Shown here: one piece after another, positions 1 to 6,456 of the stretch
How positions within the stretch are numbered: position 1 is the first letter of the stretch
How the letters are laid out: the number at the start of each line of letters is the position of its first letter
Assembly: GCA_027335965.1 (NCBI GenBank)
Contig: DAHWGZ010000096.1
Span: 1 to 6,456, forward strand
Origin: Acidiferrobacter sp.
GTDB lineage: Bacteria; Pseudomonadota; Gammaproteobacteria; Acidiferrobacterales; Acidiferrobacteraceae
Reading direction: 5' to 3'
Length of the DNA stretch: 6,456 bases
Position numbers and translations under genes: made by a program
Notes under the pieces: model-generated
Told to the model about the DNA's origin: nothing
Databases searched by the model: none
The model's input: the letters and a program-made list of their open reading frames with translations, nothing else

Positions 1-511
1 CCGGACCCAGCCAGTCCTTGTGATCGGTGCCCACCGAGACCACCACCGCCACGTCGGCGTCGACGATGTTGACCGCATCGAGCCGGCCGCCAAGCCCCAC
101 CTCCAGGATCGCCACATCGACAGCGGTGCGCGCAAACAGCGAAAGCGCGGCCAGCGTGCCAAACTCGAAGTAGGTCAGAGAGGTATCGCCGCGCGCCGCC
201 TCGACCGCGGCGAAGGCCTCGCACAAGGCCTCGTCGGTGGCCTCCTCGGCATTCACGCGCACGCGCTCGTTGTAGCGTATAAGATGCGGCGAGAAATAAG
301 CGCCGGTGCGATAGCCGGCCGCCCGATAGCAGGATTCCAGGATGGCGGATGTCGAACCCTTCCCGTTGGTCCCGCCGACGGTGATGACCGGGCATGACAA
401 GGGCGCCATGCGCTCATAGACCGCGCGCACCCGGCGCAGCCCGAGATCGATGCCGCGAGAGTGAAGGCGGTCTATGTGGGCCAGCCATTCTTGAAGGGTT
501 TCGTGACTCAG
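1..511 (-). CDS. folC: Bifunctional folylpolyglutamate synthase/dihydrofolate synthase, N-terminal part (runs off the left edge)
   Basis: FolC is a cytoplasmic Mur-ligase-family enzyme that adds glutamate to dihydropteroate and to folates using ATP. I translated the minus strand from 511 to the edge and found about 170 codons without a stop. Residues 8-24 read [17 protein letters not shown], the usual FolC N-terminal helix. The ATP P-loop is GGTNGKGST at 46-54, followed by [16 protein letters not shown], the TYFEFGT segment, [13 protein letters not shown] and [10 protein letters not shown], all characteristic of the family. The C-terminal part lies outside the window. No ATG, GTG or TTG is available in frame between the upstream in-frame TAG (inside accD) and the conserved N-terminus. 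The best start is therefore CTG at 511-509, which forms a CTGA overlap with the accD stop. It is the last visible gene of the trp-accD-folC train. The identity is secure; the start codon is inferred. Confidence 0.95.
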
Positions 512-1401
512 AGGTCTTTGTGCAACGCGTTGGTGGTATGGGCGACAAGCGGTCTATTGGTCATGATCGACAACAGCCGGGCGATCGTCTCGCGCAGCTT
601 GTGGCGATGCACGATCATGTCGATCGCGCCATGGTCGAGCAGGAACTCCGACCGCTGAAAGCCCTCCGGCAGGGTCTCGCGCACGGTCTGCTCGATCACG
701 CGCGGACCCGCGAAGCCGATCAGGGCCTTGGGCTCGCCTATGATCACGTCGCCGAGCATGGCGAAGCTCGCCGATACCCCTCCCATCGTCGGGTCGGTGA
801 GCACCGAGATGAACGGCAACCCCTCGTCCGCCATGCGCGCCAGCGCCGCGCTGGTCTTGGCCATCTGCATGAGCGAGGTCAGCCCCTCCTGCATGCGCGC
901 GCCGCCGCTCGCCGCGAAACAGACGAAGGGCAGGCGCTCGGAAAGGCACATATCCACGCCGCGCACGAAACGCTCGCCGACCACCGAGCCCATGGAGCCG
1001 CCCATGAAGGCGAACTCGAAGGCCGCGGCCACCAGCGGCAGGCCTTGCACGCGCCCCCGCATCACGACGAGCGCATCCGACTCCCCGGTGGTCTTCACGG
1101 CATCGGTCAGGCGGTCCTTGTAGCGCTTGCTGTCCTTGAACTTGAGGAAATCCGTGGGCGCGAGGCCGGCCCCGATCTCGGGATGATCCCCGGCGTCGAG
1201 GAAGGCGGCGAGCCTCTTGCGCGCCGATATGCGCATATGATGATCGCAGCGCGGACATACGCCCGCATTCTTTTCGATCTCGGCGTGATACAAGACATTG
1301 GCGCACGCCGGGCATTTGCTCCACAAGCCCTCGGGAACGGCCTTCTTCGCCACCCCCCGGCTCTTGATCTTGGGGGGCAGAAGCTTGTCGAACCAACTCA
1401 T
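508..1401 (-). CDS. accD: Acetyl-CoA carboxylase carboxyltransferase subunit beta
   Basis: This is the beta subunit of the AccA-AccD carboxyltransferase, which moves the carboxyl group from carboxybiotin to acetyl-CoA to give malonyl-CoA, the first committed step of fatty acid synthesis. The 297 residues match the usual length. The N-terminus [12 protein letters not shown] is typical. A four-cysteine zinc ribbon is visible (CPAC at 30-33 and CPRC at 49-52). The crotonase-like core shows [12 protein letters not shown] (132-143), SGGARMQEG (165-173) and [11 protein letters not shown] (202-212). Nothing essential appears to be missing. The ATG at 1401 overlaps the trpA stop as ATGA, and a G-rich run about 8 bases upstream can serve as ribosome binding site. 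Placement between trpA and folC is common in proteobacteria and suggests expression as part of the trp train. Confidence 0.98.
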
Positions 1402-2213
1402 GATGGCATCCCCCCGCCACGCACGAGGGCCGCGCGCAGGTCACGCACGAAGGCCTCGGTATCGGCGATCGCCGCCTCGGTGGACGTCCCGGCCGCCATC
1501 TTCTCCACGATCGCGCTGCCGACGATGACGGCGTCGGCAAAGCGCCCCACCTCGGCCGCCGAGCGCGCGTCGCGAATCCCAAAGCCCACACCCACCGGAA
1601 TCGCCGCGCTCTTGCGCACGATCGCAAGCCGCTCGGCGACCTCGGCCACGTTCAGGTGACTTGCCCCGGTGACCCCCTTCAAGGCCACATAGTAAAGAAA
1701 GCCCGTGGAGGCCGCGCTGATCACGGCGAGCCGTTCCACCGATGTCGTCGGCGACAGCAGGAAAATCGTGTCGATGCCCGCGCGCGCGGCCTCGGCGCGC
1801 CATTCGGCGGCCTCCTCGGGCGGCATATCGACGAGCAGCACGCCATCGACACCGGCCGCCTGGCAGGCCCGCGCAAAGACCCCGTAACCCATGACCTCCA
1901 CCGGGTTCACATAACCCATGAGGATCACCGGCGTGCGCGTATCGTCGCGCCGGAACGCCGCCACCAGATCGATGATGGCGCGAGTCGTGGCGCCGGCGGC
2001 GAGCGCCCTTTGGTGAGCCATCTGGATCGCCGGGCCGTCGGCCATGGGGTCGGAAAACGGCATGCCGACCTCGATCAGATCGGCGCCCGCGCGCACCAGC
2101 GCGCGCATGAGCGGCACGGTGGCCGAAAGCGTGGGATCGCCGCCCGTGATGAACGGGATCAGCGCCGCGCGCGTGCCGGCCAGCGCCGCGAATGTGTTCT
2201 TTATCCGCGACAC
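1398..2213 (-). CDS. trpA: Tryptophan synthase alpha chain
   Basis: TrpA cleaves indole-3-glycerol phosphate to indole and glyceraldehyde 3-phosphate, and channels indole to TrpB in the alpha2beta2 complex. The 271-residue TIM-barrel protein has normal length. The signature [16 protein letters not shown] carries the catalytic Glu48 and Asp59 (equivalents of Glu49 and Asp60 in the Salmonella enzyme). ALKGVTGA (177-184) and the phosphate-binding GVGFGI (208-213) and VIVGSAIV (229-236) segments are intact. The start is GTG at 2213, giving the N-terminus (M)[18 protein letters not shown] run seven bases upstream is a good ribosome binding site and supports this GTG. The gene starts 13 bases inside the end of trpB, and its stop overlaps the accD start, so translation of all three is probably coupled. 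Confidence 0.98.
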
Positions 2214-3409
2214 GTCGAAACCCCCTCGTAGGCCGCCACGGTCTCCACGTCCTTGTCCCCGCGACCCGACAGATTCACGATCAGCGCCGCCTCGGGCCCG
2301 AGGCGCGCCGCCAAGGTCTGCGCATAGGCGAGCGCATGGCTCGACTCCAGCGCCGGCAGGATGCCCTCGAGACGCGTGAGCGCATGAAACGCCGCCAGCG
2401 CCTCTTCGTCGTCGACCGCCACGTAGCGGGCCCGCCCGCTATCCTTCAGCCACGCATGTTCGGGTCCCACGCCCGGATAATCGAGGCCCGCCGAGATCGA
2501 GTGCGTGTCGCGAATCTGCCCATCCTCGTCGAACATGAGATAGCTGCGCGCCCCGTGCAATACCCCGCGCCCGCTATCGGCCGTGAGCGGCGCCGCATGC
2601 TGGCCCGTCGCCAACCCCTTGCCCGCCGCCTCGACCCCGTAGAGCGCGACCTCGGCATCATCCAGGAACGCGTGAAAGAGCCCGATGGCGTTGGAGCCGC
2701 CGCCCACGCAGGCCACCAACGCGTGCGGCAGGCGCCCCTCGCGCTCCAGGAACTGGCGGCGGGCCTCCTGCCCGATCACCACCTGGAAATCGCGCACCAT
2801 GGCCGGATAGGGATGCGGTCCACTCACCGTCCCGATCACATAAAACGTCTCGTCGACCGTCGTCGCCCAGTCGCGCATGGCCTCGTTCATGGCATCCTTC
2901 AGGGTCCGCGAACCCAGCGTGACGCTCACCACCTCGGCCCCCAAAAGACGCATGCGCCGGACGTTGGGGGCCTGACGCGCGATATCCTCGGCGCCCATAT
3001 AGATCACGCATGACAGCCCCAGGCGGGCGGCCACGGTGGCGGTCGCCACCCCATGCTGGCCGGCCCCGGTCTCGGCGATCAGGCGCTTCTTGCCCATGCG
3101 GCGGGCGAGCAAGGCCTGGCCTATCGTATTGTTCACCTTGTGGGCGCCGGTATGGTTCAAGTCCTCGCGTTTCAAGTAGATGCGCGCGCCGCCCGCGTGC
3201 GCGGTCAGGCGCTCGGCGAGGTACAGCGGCGACGGCCGCCCCACGTAATCCCGGAAATCGGCGGCAAGCTCCGCCTGAAAGGCGGGGTCGACGCGCGCCT
3301 CGCGGTACGCGCGCTCGAGCTCGGCAAGCGGACCCATCAAGGTCTCGGCCACGAACCGGCCCCCATATGGCCCGAAGTGCCCACGCTCATCCGGCTGTTC
3401 GTAACTCAT
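2201..3409 (-). CDS. trpB: Tryptophan synthase beta chain
   Basis: TrpB is the PLP-dependent subunit that condenses indole with L-serine to make L-tryptophan. From the ATG at 3409 the protein is 402 residues, the usual length for a TrpB1-type enzyme. The PLP lysine lies in [10 protein letters not shown] (Lys91), the catalytic glutamate in AETGAGQHG (Glu113), the PLP-phosphate loop is GGGSNAIG (236-243), and the C-terminal SGRGDKD (381-387) is intact. A longer reading from a TTG at 3433 adds eight residues. The ATG is preferred because a GAGGAG Shine-Dalgarno lies just before it, because [19 protein letters not shown] matches typical TrpB N-termini, and because it forms an ATGA overlap with the trpF stop. 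Its partner trpA follows with a 13-bp overlap, as expected for a stoichiometric complex. Confidence 0.98.
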
Positions 3410-4026
3410 GCTTCTCCTCTTGCATAGCGGCAAAACTCACGCATGCGCCGCTCATCCTTGATCCCAGGCGCGCTTTCGACGCCGCCGCTGACATCGACCC
3501 CATAGGGCCGGACCTCATTGATGGCCGCCGCCACGTTGGCGGGCGACAGGCCGCCCGCCAGGATCACGGGCTTGCAAAGACCGCCGGGAATCCGCCCCCA
3601 ATCGAAGACCTGCCCGGTCCCGCCAGGACGCCCTTTTTGGTGGGTATCCAGCAACAGGCCTTGGGCGGAGGCATAACGCGACTCGGCCGCGCGCACATCC
3701 ACCCCCTCCGTCATGGCGATCGCCTTCAGATACGGCCGACCATAACGCCGACACTCTTCCGGGGTCTCCCGGCCATGAAACTGCAAGACATCCAGCGCCA
3801 CGCCCGCCAGCACCGCCTCGATCTCCTCGGGCGCAGCGTCGACGAACAGCCCGACGCGTGTCACGAACGGGGGCAGAACGGCCAGAATCGCCCGCGCGGC
3901 CTCGATATCGACATGGCGCGGACTCGGCCGATAAAACACGAGACCGATGGCGTCGGCGCCCGCCGCGGCTGCGGCCTGCGCATCCGAGGGCCTGGTGATC
4001 CCGCAAATTTTCACGCGTGTCGGCAT
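3406..4026 (-). CDS. trpF: Phosphoribosylanthranilate isomerase
   Basis: TrpF catalyses the Amadori rearrangement of N-(5'-phosphoribosyl)anthranilate to CdRP, the third step of tryptophan synthesis. The 206-residue TIM barrel begins [12 protein letters not shown], with the general-base cysteine at position 8. The general-acid aspartate is in LLLDT (Asp127). LQFHG (81-85), the GGTGQVFDW segment (135-143), [11 protein letters not shown] (155-165) and [15 protein letters not shown] (177-191) are all family hallmarks. The ATG at 4026 is the only start that keeps the conserved N-terminus. No Shine-Dalgarno sequence precedes it, unlike trpB and trpA. It is the only gene of the train with an appreciable upstream gap (36 bp) and so may have its own promoter. 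Its stop overlaps the trpB start as ATGA. No trp leader peptide or attenuator is visible in the gap. Confidence 0.98.
3411..3420 (-). promoter_or_regulatory. Ribosome binding site deciding the trpB start
   Basis: Reading the minus strand, AGAGGAG occupies 3420-3414, four bases before the ATG at 3409. It lies inside the last codons of trpF. It supports the ATG over the upstream in-frame TTG at 3433 and is the strongest Shine-Dalgarno-like match I saw in the window. Confidence 0.75.
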
Positions 4027-4036
4027 AGGGCGATGG

Positions 4037-4045
4037 AGTGTAGCA
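4037..4045 (-). promoter_or_regulatory. Candidate extended -10 element in front of trpF
   Basis: On the minus strand TGCTACACT reads as an extended -10 (TG, one base, then TACACT, four of six matches to TATAAT). The hexamer ends ten bases before the trpF ATG, so transcription would start only a few bases ahead of the start codon. A -35 at the proper distance is poor: TTAAGT at 4066-4061, 18-bp spacing, three of six matches. It is the only sensible internal promoter candidate of the train, but it is a short match in a small gap and could be chance. Confidence 0.35.
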
Positions 4046-4059
4046 GAGGCACGGCCCCC

Positions 4060-4069
4060 GACTTAAGTC
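4060..4069. repeat. Perfect 10-bp palindrome GACTTAAGTC at the trpF upstream gap
   Basis: The ten bases are identical on both strands. The palindrome straddles the TAA stop of the 116-residue protein gene and coincides with the -35 region of the candidate trpF promoter. It is too short and lacks a loop and T-run, so it is not a terminator. It could be an operator half or a chance palindrome around the stop codon. Confidence 0.4.
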
Positions 4070-4413
4070 TTGGACGCCCGGTAGGTCTCGAAATGCGTCC
4101 TGAAGAGCACCTCCAGATCGTCGATCACCTCCGCATTCGGCCGCCCGCCGATGACATTCTGGGCCATCAGGGTCGAGGTCTCGTTTAGCATCTTCCCGCG
4201 ATCCAGCATGGGATAACTTGCCGCGAGTCGCTTGATGGCGCGCACCACGCTCTCCTCCTCGGGCCGCGGGATCGACAGCGGCTCGGACGGTACCACGGAC
4301 TTCAGGCCGCCGAGCCGCACATGCAGGAATTCGGCAAACGCCAAAAGCTGCTCCTGGCCCTCGTCCGGGAGATCACGCACCACCGCCAGCAGACGTTTCT
4401 CGAAGCGGTCCAC
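4063..4413 (-). CDS. Small protein of unknown function, 116 residues
   Basis: I do not recognise a named family. The protein is soluble in appearance, acidic to neutral, and predicted largely helical, with no signal peptide or membrane segment. The N-terminal 30 residues (RLLAVVRDLPDEGQEQLLAFAEF) resemble the short helical pair seen at the start of DUF2281-type and some antitoxin-like proteins; this is a weak similarity by eye. A proline-rich linker (EPLSIPRPEEES, 44-55) leads to a C-terminal helical part with the conserved-looking stretches AIKRLAASYPMLDRGKML (59-76) and VIDDLEVLF (96-104). The start is GTG at 4413, two bases after the stop of the amidotransferase-like gene, with GGTGAG upstream. 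The tight spacing indicates co-transcription with the genes on both sides. The gene is very likely real because its frame is uninterrupted, junctions are operon-like and the protein looks well ordered. Confidence 0.8.
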   Translation of the reverse strand: MDRFEKRLLAVVRDLPDEGQEQLLAFAEFLHVRLGGLKSVVPSEPLSIPRPEEESVVRAIKRLAASYPMLDRGKMLNETSTLMAQNVIGGRPNAEVIDDLEVLFRTHFETYRASKT

Positions 4414-4415
4414 GG

Positions 4416-5156
4416 CTACTCACCGACATTCAATCGGAAGACCGGCATTTTGCGCCGCTCCCGCATCAAATCGAGCTCTTTTACGAGCGCCACGATCACC
4501 TGGTCTGTGGTGCGCTGCGTATCCCCCCAATGCTGGCGCGCCTCGGCCAGCAACTCGCCGATATCGGGCGGCGTCCTGCGCTTGGCCTCCATGATCATGT
4601 CCTCGATCATCCCGGGCTTCAGTTCGGGGCGAAACAACAGGCCATAGGCCAGGGGGTCGGGGCGGATGGCGATCCAGCGGCCGGCATCGTCGACCACGAT
4701 CGGCTCCATGCCCTTGGGCAGGGTCGCGGCGCCATTGGCCATCACCAGCACCGGCCGGCCGTCGACCGCCTGGGCCAAGGCGTCCGCCTCCCCCGCCTTG
4801 GTCTTGTGGGCGGTCGTCCAGTAGGCGTCATGAAAAGGCTCGGGACTCAAGAGCGCGCCCTCGTATTCGGCGAGCAGGAGCGCGCCATAGCCGAGCCCCA
4901 CCATTGGCCGGCGCGCGTCGCGAAATATCCCGATCAGCCGCAACTCATCGTCATGCCAGGGGTTCTTGTCCTGATCGCTGGGCGGGGCCTGGCCTCCGAG
5001 CACGAACAGGGCGTCGAACTGGCCGGCGCTGCCCGGCAGGTCCTGGCCCACGAACGGCCGGAAATAGGCAAAACCGATATCGCGCTTTTCGAGCTGATTT
5101 TCGATCAGCCCGAGGAACTCCGAGTAAGTGTGCTGGACGACCGCGAATTGCTTCAT
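4416..5156 (-). CDS. Class I glutamine-amidotransferase-like protein lacking the catalytic Cys and His
   Basis: The fold is that of the GATase1 domain seen in GMP-synthase-like amidotransferases. Residues 48-56 (DALFVLGGQ), NPWHDDELRLI (65-75), RPMVGLGYGALLLAEYEGA (83-101) and AYGLLFRPELKPGMIEDMI (170-188) line up in order with the family's oxyanion strand, nucleophile elbow and C-terminal His-Glu motif. The nucleophile position, normally G-x-C-x-G, is Gly89 (codon GGC at 4892-4890). The catalytic His of the usual FHPE motif is Arg176 in FRPE, while Glu178 is kept. The normal HWHGD segment reads VMANG. Glutaminase activity is therefore not expected; a binding or regulatory role is my inference. 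A C-terminal helical extension (about 190-246) follows the domain. The ATG at 5156 overlaps the LysR stop as ATGA. A longer reading frame upstream exists but only runs antisense-free through the LysR gene in another frame and is rejected. Confidence 0.85.
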   Translation of the reverse strand: MKQFAVVQHTYSEFLGLIENQLEKRDIGFAYFRPFVGQDLPGSAGQFDALFVLGGQAPPSDQDKNPWHDDELRLIGIFRDARRPMVGLGYGALLLAEYEGALLSPEPFHDAYWTTAHKTKAGEADALAQAVDGRPVLVMANGAATLPKGMEPIVVDDAGRWIAIRPDPLAYGLLFRPELKPGMIEDMIMEAKRRTPPDIGELLAEARQHWGDTQRTTDQVIVALVKELDLMRERRKMPVFRLNVGE

Positions 5157-6085
5157 GAAGCCTGCGCCTTGGCCACCGATTCGACGCCACCCTGACGCTC
5201 GCAATGCGCATGCGCGAAGCGCATGAACTCCTCCACCGCCCGCAGGCGGAACTTCTGGCGTTGATAGACAAAGGAGAATGGGCGGTCGATGGGCGGATCG
5301 AGGGGCAAGGCCACGAGGGTACCGAGCCGCAACTCCTTTGCCACCGTCGCCTTGGAGACGATGGACACACCCAAGCCCGCCTCCACCGAACTCTTGACCG
5401 ATTCGGGGCTGCCGAACTCCATGCTGAGATTGAGATCGTGCCATTGCAGGGCGTTGTGCGCCAAGTAATCGCTGATCACCTCGCGGGTCCCCGAACCTTC
5501 CTCGCGCGCCAGGAAGGGCTGATCGAGCAGCTCGCGCACCGGGACCTTGTCGACCCGCGCCATGGCGTGATCCGGCCGGCAAATGAACACCAGCTGGTCT
5601 TGCCAACAGACCTCCACCGCGAGATTCTTGTTGGCAACCGGCGATTCGACAATGCCGATATCGACGGTATTGCTCTCCACCATATGCACGATGCCCAGGG
5701 AATTGGACACGCTAAGCCGGATGCGCACATCCGGATGGCGCCCCTGAAACTCGCCCAGAAGGGCTGGCAACACGTATTCGGCAATGGTGGTGCTGGCGCC
5801 GATGATGAGCACGCCCGAGACATCCCCCGTGATGTCGCGGACGCGGATGTTCATCTCGTTGTAGAGGCCTATGATCCGGTCGGCATACTCGAAGACCCGC
5901 TCGCCGGCGGCCGTGAGGTTGATGCGGTTGTGGGTACGATCGAACAGGCGGGTATTGAAGAATTCCTCGAGCTGGCGCACCTGAAAGGTGACGGCCGGCT
6001 GCGTCATGTGTAAGGTCTCCGCGGCCTTGGTGAAACTCAAAAGCCTCGCCACTGTATGGAATACCTGGAGTCGCCGGTCAGCCAT
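5153..6085 (-). CDS. LysR-family transcriptional regulator (CbbR/YeiE/CysL-like type)
   Basis: This 310-residue protein has the LysR layout. An N-terminal winged helix-turn-helix covers residues 1-60 (FTKAAETLHMTQPAVTFQVRQLEE, here split: FTKAAETLHMTQ at 18-29 and PAVTFQVRQLEE at 30-41). A linker helix follows, then a periplasmic-binding-like effector domain from about 90 to 295. LFDRTHNRINLTAAG (47-61), GASTTIAEYVLPALLG (96-111), EEGSGTRE (195-202) and EAGLGVSIVS (235-244) resemble the group that contains CbbR, YeiE and CysL. The effector cannot be told from sequence by eye. The ATG at 6085 is chosen over an in-frame GTG at 6097 because MADRRLQVFHTVA is the usual family start and GGAAAGAG (6095-6088) gives a ribosome binding site. 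The gene is divergent from the membrane-protein gene and translationally linked (ATGA) to the amidotransferase-like gene. Autoregulation through the intergenic dyad is likely. Confidence 0.95.
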   Translation of the reverse strand: MADRRLQVFHTVARLLSFTKAAETLHMTQPAVTFQVRQLEEFFNTRLFDRTHNRINLTAAGERVFEYADRIIGLYNEMNIRVRDITGDVSGVLIIGASTTIAEYVLPALLGEFQGRHPDVRIRLSVSNSLGIVHMVESNTVDIGIVESPVANKNLAVEVCWQDQLVFICRPDHAMARVDKVPVRELLDQPFLAREEGSGTREVISDYLAHNALQWHDLNLSMEFGSPESVKSSVEAGLGVSIVSKATVAKELRLGTLVALPLDPPIDRPFSFVYQRQKFRLRAVEEFMRFAHAHCERQGGVESVAKAQAS

Positions 6086-6122
6086 GTCTCTTTCCACCCC
6101 TCGATCGCGCGCCCGTCGGGCC

Positions 6123-6135
6123 TTGTAGTATACAA
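6123..6135. promoter_or_regulatory. Putative LysR-type operator, T-N11-A dyad (TTGTA-N3-TACAA)
   Basis: TTGTAGTATACAA has perfect 5-bp inverted arms separated by GTA and fits the T-N11-A consensus known for LysR-family binding sites. It lies in the 57-bp gap between the LysR start (6085) and the divergent ATG (6143), and covers the candidate -10 elements of both directions. Binding there would be expected to repress both genes, or autorepress the regulator. The motif is short, so a chance match is possible; the location is what makes it credible. Confidence 0.5.
6127..6132 (-). promoter_or_regulatory. Candidate -10 element for the LysR-led gene train
   Basis: The minus strand reads TATACT, five of six matches to TATAAT. 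Transcription starting about seven bases downstream would leave a leader of roughly 35 bases before the LysR ATG, enough for the GGAAAGAG ribosome binding site. I see no good -35 hexamer at 16-18 bp, which would fit an activator-dependent or weak promoter. Confidence 0.4.
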
Positions 6136-6136
6136 T
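6131..6136 (+). promoter_or_regulatory. Candidate -10 element for the divergent membrane-protein gene
   Basis: TACAAT matches TATAAT at five of six positions and ends six bases before the ATG at 6143, so the transcript would begin at or next to the start codon. No Shine-Dalgarno sequence is present in front of that ATG, in agreement with a leaderless mRNA. No convincing -35 is seen in the GC-rich stretch at 6107-6114. Confidence 0.35.
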
Positions 6137-6142
6137 GATTTA

Positions 6143-6456
6143 ATGTCGAACGCCTGGAAACAATGGGATTTCTCGGGGGCTGGGCTCCAGTCGCTCAATC
6201 TCGAACTCGTCAAGCGCCTGCGCAAGCCTGGCGTGGCCTTCAGCCTGTGGGCTGGTTTTGCGCTCGGCCTCCATGCGTTTTATCTCCATGAACGGCCGCG
6301 CGCGCTCGGCTATCTGGCGGCGAGCCTCCTGATCGCGATCGCCGCGATCCTCTGGCCGTGGCCGATCGCAGCCGGGCTCGGTGCCCTGGATCTGGCTGTG
6401 GCACTCGCCGACCTCGCGACCCTCGAACGGCGCCTGACCGCCTATAACAAGGCCTT
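6143..6456 (+). CDS. Multi-pass membrane protein, N-terminal part, possibly TM2-like (runs off the right edge)
   Basis: The frame opens with ATG at 6143 (MSNAWKQWDFSGAG) and stays open for 104 codons to the window end. The first 29 residues are polar with a basic KRLRKPG stretch just before the first hydrophobic segment, which suggests a cytoplasmic N-terminus. Three hydrophobic stretches follow at about 30-48, 54-76 and 77-92, the second containing ALGYLAASLLIAIAAIL and WPWP. The segment GFALGLHAFYLHE (38-50) resembles the G-x-H-x-FYL signature of TM2-domain proteins, but this is a by-eye match and the family is not certain. A polar LERRLTAYNKAF follows. It is divergent from the LysR gene with 57 bp between starts, a common arrangement for a LysR target. 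The ATG is preceded by TAA in a TAATG overlap with a two-codon ATG-ATT-TAA reading frame, and has no ribosome binding site. Confidence 0.75.
   Translation, partial: MSNAWKQWDFSGAGLQSLNLELVKRLRKPGVAFSLWAGFALGLHAFYLHERPRALGYLAASLLIAIAAILWPWPIAAGLGALDLAVALADLATLERRLTAYNKA

Follow-up and report, generated by a model that had tools for sequence, protein, structure and literature searches.

A conserved GATase-fold family without catalytic cysteine and histidine occurs together with the sHdr system and is probably a non-catalytic accessory of it

In the accessible portions of the literature, many sulfur-oxidising Bacteria and Archaea are described as users of the Hdr-like pathway (PMC6067878), and part of the pathway's proteins as lacking a known function (PMC11582611). 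In the same portions, lipX is described as the gene that immediately follows slpl(AB) in H. denitrificans, with the name putative glutamine amidotransferase (Tanabe et al. 2023, PMC10332631). It is also placed before dsrE3C (PMC10451225), a GATase1 gene is marked in a cluster figure (Cao et al. 2018, PMC6067878), and a 2024 figure legend lists lipX with the genes for cofactor-assembling enzymes (PMC11582611). A helper plasmid with lipS1-slpl(AB)-lipT-lipS2 (Y is named as well in the methods) but no lipX is reported there to give mercaptooctanoyl-LbpA, with an inefficient last step (PMC10332631). No statement on a missing catalytic Cys of LipX was found in the accessible portions of PMC10332631, PMC10451225, PMC6067878 and PMC11582611, where lipX has a name but no role that has been put to the test; the main text of PMC12423496 has neither lipX nor amidotransferase. 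Literature searches gave no match for GATase, LysR and pseudoenzyme together, nor for any pair among Acidiferrobacter, CbbR and GMP synthase.

The locus analysed here is a window of 6,456 nt from Acidiferrobacter sp. (GCA_027335965.1, contig DAHWGZ010000096.1, positions 1 to 6,456, forward strand). It contains a pseudo-GATase gene, pGAT, at 4416..5156 on the minus strand including the stop codon; the assignment of the 246-aa product is based on ORF, fold and family evidence. The LysR-type regulator gene just upstream (5153..6097, minus strand; Pfam LysR_substrate 2.6e-51, HTH_1 5.3e-22) is joined to pGAT by an ATGA overlap. Divergent from LysR is the start of C0 (6143..6454, plus strand), a small TM2-like, probably membrane protein whose gene continues beyond the window edge; its ORF is 6056-6454 and the start was placed from homologues. 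Downstream of pGAT are C2, coding for a small all-helical protein of 116 aa (4063..4413, minus strand), and trpF, the first of the tryptophan genes (3406..4026, minus strand; Pfam PRAI 1e-45).

pGAT has the GATase1 fold, as the preliminary description had proposed. The best structure match is DnfC (PDB 8khs), which is like pGAT in fold and length, and the stand-alone glutamine amidotransferases PRK07053/PRK06490, its best NCBIfam matches, are similar to it in the same two respects. As a class I glutamine amidotransferase, pGAT lacks the Cys of the G-x-C-x-G elbow and the His of the triad, while the triad Glu is kept. On the minus strand, the codon at 4890..4892 places Gly89 at the nucleophile Cys position (GLGYG), and that at 4629..4631 places Arg176 at the catalytic His position (FRPE). 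The six Cys-type relatives that were fetched keep Cys and His, whereas pGAT keeps neither. The family alignment has 178 rows (175 distinct), made of the best 120 of 631 relatives from a search of 5.8 billion proteins at E<=0.001, 20 sequences from a profile search, 37 loci and the window. In these rows, including the best 120 of 631, the nucleophile position is Gly in 174 and Ala in 4, the catalytic His position is Arg in 178/178, and the triad Glu is kept in 176 and is Asp in 2. Carriers identified by name, among the matches listed, include Acidiferrobacter, Sulfuriferula and Sulfurirhabdus. The dN/dS of pGAT is 0.063-0.140 in 14 pairs of the window with close relatives. The Gly89 and Arg176 states are thus conserved across genera, and the pseudoenzyme assignment holds. 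Because the loss of Cys and His is family-wide and dN/dS is low, pGAT is a conserved family kept by purifying selection, and a strain-specific lesion or decay is ruled out. The same selection and conservation point to a retained non-catalytic role, as had been suggested from the window. From these residues we infer that pGAT is without glutamine hydrolysis. Sulfur carriage through a conserved Cys of pGAT is ruled out, the best Cys column in the family reaching only 46%.

A second Cys-less family occupies the lipX position. We equate it with LipX from its place in the operon, which follows slpl(AB) or LipS2 and precedes DsrE-HdrC1; the Hden_0687 sequence does not enter into this assignment. It is represented by 133 rows, 120 database proteins (best 120 of 4417) and 13 loci. 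All 133 rows, with those 120 taken as the best of 4417, have a Cys-less elbow (Gly in 131, Glu in 2), keep the His, and replace the triad Glu with Gly. A Cys is present in 89% of the rows (again including the best 120 of 4417) at alignment column 89; it precedes the elbow and is distinct from the nucleophile site. No plasmid-borne relative of the lipX-position protein was matched at E<=1e-5. Profile-profile alignment (hhalign) of pGAT with this family gives a probability of 99.9, E 1.8e-35, over 227 columns with 29% identity. Gln8, Glu19, Arg25, Phe29, Tyr31, Arg33, Pro34, Lys180, Glu185, Asp186 and Glu190 are, among others, positions that never vary across the 311 rows of the two families. 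At most of them the outgroup of six Cys-type GATases differs, with Arg33 present in three. In whole-genome matches, bit scores within the pGAT family are about 345 or more, against 81-117 for the next relatives, the lipX-position family. In the GATase tree (64 of 318 sequences, six Cys-type rows as outgroup, root arbitrary), pGAT forms one group (99/99) and the lipX-position family another (99/97), and a split with 100/99 support divides the Cys-less rows from those of the Cys type; L043 has a long branch, and the program's warning that long branches meet applies to this tree. Since the two groups are separate and well supported, pGAT is, as judged from these sequences, a sister to the lipX-position family rather than a member of it. 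Compared with LipX of the Hden_0687 type, pGAT is alike in belonging to the GATase family, in having no nucleophile Cys, in at least 10 common invariant residues and in tracking sHdr. It differs in the 29% identity between profiles, in the triad (Arg and Glu in pGAT, His kept and Glu to Gly at the lipX position), in a C-terminal tail of ~15 residues, and in its gene, which neighbours C0 and LysR instead of being in the sHdr operon. Co-occurrence is what brought out pGAT as a sister lineage of its own, encoded away from that operon.

The lipX-position GATase lies among sHdr and lipoate genes in 11/11 fetched loci, and in two more genomes it is <=1.5 kb from sHdrB1 by coordinates. The typical order is LipS1-LipT-LipS2-sLpl(AB)-GATase-DsrE-HdrC1-HdrB1-HdrA-Hyp-HdrC2-HdrB2-LbpA. 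There are exceptions: the lip genes are divergent in L045 and L046, DsrE is ~5 kb further on in L106, and L110 has lip genes and a DsrE fragment only, its contig ending ahead of the Hdr genes. Best Pfam/NCBIfam matches of the cluster genes are lipoate ligase, LipS1, LipS2, HdrA, HdrB, HdrC, GcvH (LbpA), TusA, DsrE and a histone-deacetylase domain; for LipS1 and LipS2 these are the best NCBIfam models, at scores below the cut-offs. The names Hyp (of sHdr), DsrE3 and LipT are taken from the published gene order.

The association with sHdr is the outstanding link of pGAT, and it is not visible from the window alone. Genomes were scanned for GATases at E<=1e-20 (orders) or 1e-30 (phylum) and for sHdrB1 at 1e-20 (G001 order) or 1e-60. 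In the two large genome samples at most six first-look GATase candidates were scored per genome; the samples overlap, G008 and some other genomes being in two. In the order of Sulfuriferula multivorans (G008, locus L022; 399 genomes), 32 genomes have a family member (25 pGAT, 7 lipX-position) and 33 have sHdrB1. All 32 carriers have sHdrB1 as compared with 1/367 non-carriers, and 366 genomes have neither. In the G001 order (57 genomes), which includes the Acidiferrobacter genome L005/G003, 24 genomes have a family member (23 pGAT, 1 lipX-position) and 22 have sHdrB1, present in 22/24 carriers and 0/33 non-carriers. The Fisher values are 1.8e-46 and 7.9e-14, respectively, and both overstate the evidence because related genomes are not independent; kinship inflates these counts and those of the phylum sample below. 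In G416 and G422, the two carriers that lack sHdrB1, the contig stops next to or within LipS1, at the place where the sHdr genes would be expected to begin. Two other carriers, G003 and G461, have sHdrB1 and no LipS1 match, which may reflect assembly gaps. In a phylum sample of 398 genomes, a Cys-less relative is found at E<=1e-30 in four (one pGAT, two lipX-position, and the L043 protein), all among the seven genomes with sHdrB1. The remaining three sHdr genomes each have a lipX-position member near sHdrB1 at a looser limit; this 7/7 is not a symmetric test because the looser re-search covered sHdr-positive genomes only. Co-occurrence with sHdr genes thus has one exception, G754, the sole sHdrB1 genome among non-carriers of the G008 order. 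All 15 of its GATase candidates were scored and none is a family member (best 33.9 bits). Its locus L122 carries an sHdr-lip cluster with neither pGAT nor a lipX-position GATase, by loss or by an assembly gap. G008 has a second copy of sHdrB1 (L116:9207-10517, minus strand), with no other sHdr marker in the 19 kb that were read.

Given a family-wide loss of Cys and His in a protein that goes together with sHdr among the sampled genomes, pGAT is probably a non-enzymatic helper of the sHdr system and not a part of tryptophan synthesis, and a non-catalytic, GATase-fold accessory is the reading we favour, with moderate confidence. The former active-site region of pGAT may bind a partner or a small ligand of the sHdr/LbpA machinery. 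Gln8, Glu19, Arg33, Lys180, Glu185 and Asp186 are candidate binding residues; judged by the fold, they would be near the former site. Such binding would help to assemble, hold or switch the machinery, and pGAT would then serve sHdr rather than lipoylation.

C0 is the likely, though conjectural, partner of pGAT. It is found at 55/56 pGAT loci, and in the G001 order its 23 genomes among 57 are exactly the pGAT carriers. The C0 proteins are short, and the three members scanned resemble Pfam TM2 weakly (E 0.057, 2.4e-06 and 0.0088); in the member with E 0.057, Wzy_C scores better (0.0018), under the Wzy_C cut-off. On these weak matches C0 is a putative transmembrane protein, and it may act as a membrane tether for pGAT in the lineage that has pGAT outside the sHdr operon. 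We put forward a wider scheme only tentatively, as a conjecture with less than an even chance: the GATase fold would have been turned, perhaps in a single event, into a Cys-less component devoted to sHdr (pGAT, LipX and the L043 protein), pGAT would pair with C0, C0 could be a missing membrane contact of sHdr, and LipX would act neither as a glutaminase nor in the assembly of lipoate. If pGAT, LipX and C0 do belong to the Hdr-like pathway, its component list changes. The operon gene called a putative glutamine amidotransferase could then not work as such in the usual way, and in Acidiferrobacter and Sulfuriferula relatives a pair of genes located away from the operon would be new candidates.

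The position of the sister family leads to the alternative that pGAT is a lipoate-assembly factor, which would aid LipS1/LipS2/sLpl(AB) in building lipoyl-LbpA, for example in the second sulfur insertion, like the presumed role of LipX. Since the lipX-position family sits among lipoate-assembly genes, a lipoate role fits that position equally. In the accessible portions of the papers, the place of lipX after slpl(AB), the inefficient last step with the lipX-free helper plasmid (PMC10332631) and the grouping of lipX in the legend (PMC11582611) agree with it. The genomes that carry pGAT are arranged differently. Their order is TusA-DsrE3-HdrC1-B1-A-Hyp-C2-B2-LbpA-DsrE-LbpA-LipS1-sLpl(AB)-LipT-LipS2. 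Fifteen genomes were read, G754 and 14 that carry pGAT, and none has a GATase match inside its sHdr cluster, so in the 14 carriers pGAT, as opposed to LipX, is not encoded inside the sHdr-lip operon. It is 8-13 kb from LipS2 in the Acidiferrobacter-side genomes G411, G417, G424 and G004, with an aldo/keto reductase gene and a histone-deacetylase-like gene between them, and PilU too in G411 and G417; in other pGAT genomes it is far from LipS2 or on a different contig. The sHdr genes themselves also separate: sHdrB1 identity to the reference locus is 72-75% with the lipX-position family versus 64-69% with pGAT. In the sHdrB1 tree (27 rows, without the short fragment L126), a branch with 100/99 support has all lipX-position genomes to one side; G014 is placed next to the pGAT side and G754 within it.

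Natural deletions bear on the lipoate reading as well. Six genomes of the G001 order have LipS1 without an sHdrB1 match, and two of these are the contig breaks in G416 and G422, both with pGAT. In G450, G451, G453 and G456, TusA, LbpA, LipS1, sLpl(AB), LipT and LipS2 are contiguous without sHdr, and searches of these genomes find neither pGAT nor C0. These four have lip genes, no sHdr and no pGAT, so presence follows sHdr and not lipoate assembly or LysR, although the four deletions may be one event in genomes that are possibly close kin. An association with lipoate alone is therefore unsupported, and with pGAT lying outside the lip operon in its own lineage, we consider a lipoate-assembly factor unlikely. 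Loci L137, L138, L140 and L141 are from genomes with LbpA, LipS1, sLpl(AB), LipT, LipS2 and TusA, but without sHdr.

The adjacent regulator raises a further alternative, that pGAT serves LysR as a metabolite sensor or co-regulator. Neighbourhoods were counted in 61 distinct loci, 56 with enough flank; L041-L103 partly repeat L001-L040 and duplicates were removed. The ATGA overlap in the window and a LysR gene just upstream of pGAT in 49/56 loci agree with a regulatory pairing, as the preliminary description had it. The remaining 7/56 loci have no LysR there, and 6 of the 7 keep the divergent C0 gene. In addition, C2 is present without pGAT in 25 genomes; 21 were read (G427, G433, G436 and G443 left out), and 19/21 of these pGAT-less loci keep LysR and C2 as neighbours, with LysR 72-77% identical to that of the window. 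Neither pGAT nor C0 is found in the read stretch of any of the 21 (tblastn, E<=1e-4). The partnership is weakened by these loci; LysR is probably a neighbour and not part of an obligate unit, and a sensor or co-regulator role is improbable. Among the loci scanned there are no gene fusions of pGAT with LysR, C0, C2 or LplT.

The strong conservation of charged residues would fit an enzyme whose rebuilt site (e.g. Arg176, Glu178, Lys180) supports a novel chemistry that does not need Cys. However, the triads differ between pGAT (Glu kept, Arg) and the lipX-position family (His kept, Gly), so no common catalytic set survives, and the low Cys conservation in the pGAT family also speaks against it; we regard this as very improbable. 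A dead TrpG tied to tryptophan, first raised as speculation, is rejected on context. Linkage to trp genes is not conserved: trpF was found in 15/40 relatives' loci, all of them (L001-L015) from the group closest to the window, and the fetched flank of the other 25/40 did not show it; of these, L033, L038 and L040 have <1 kb downstream. In contrast to TrpG (anthranilate synthase component II), pGAT has no catalytic Cys.

C2 is a widely conserved small helical protein, usually directly after the LysR gene or pGAT. It is downstream of pGAT in 53/56 loci, at some distance in two (L008, L016). It was considered as a specific partner of pGAT and this is ruled out, because it is present in 48/57 genomes of the G001 order with or without pGAT. 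The model of C2 has pLDDT 85 and pTM 0.59; no PDB match is better than E 5.2, and no Pfam or NCBIfam family is above cut-off. A third Cys-less GATase lineage (GIELG, FHPQ) is found in the genome G014 (L043:1471-2175, minus strand; L047). The G014 gene adjoins an aminotransferase class-III gene resembling hemL, and a cupin ORF nearby has a match just under the Pfam cysteine dioxygenase cut-off. G014 has sHdr (L136), on a different contig from its GATase.
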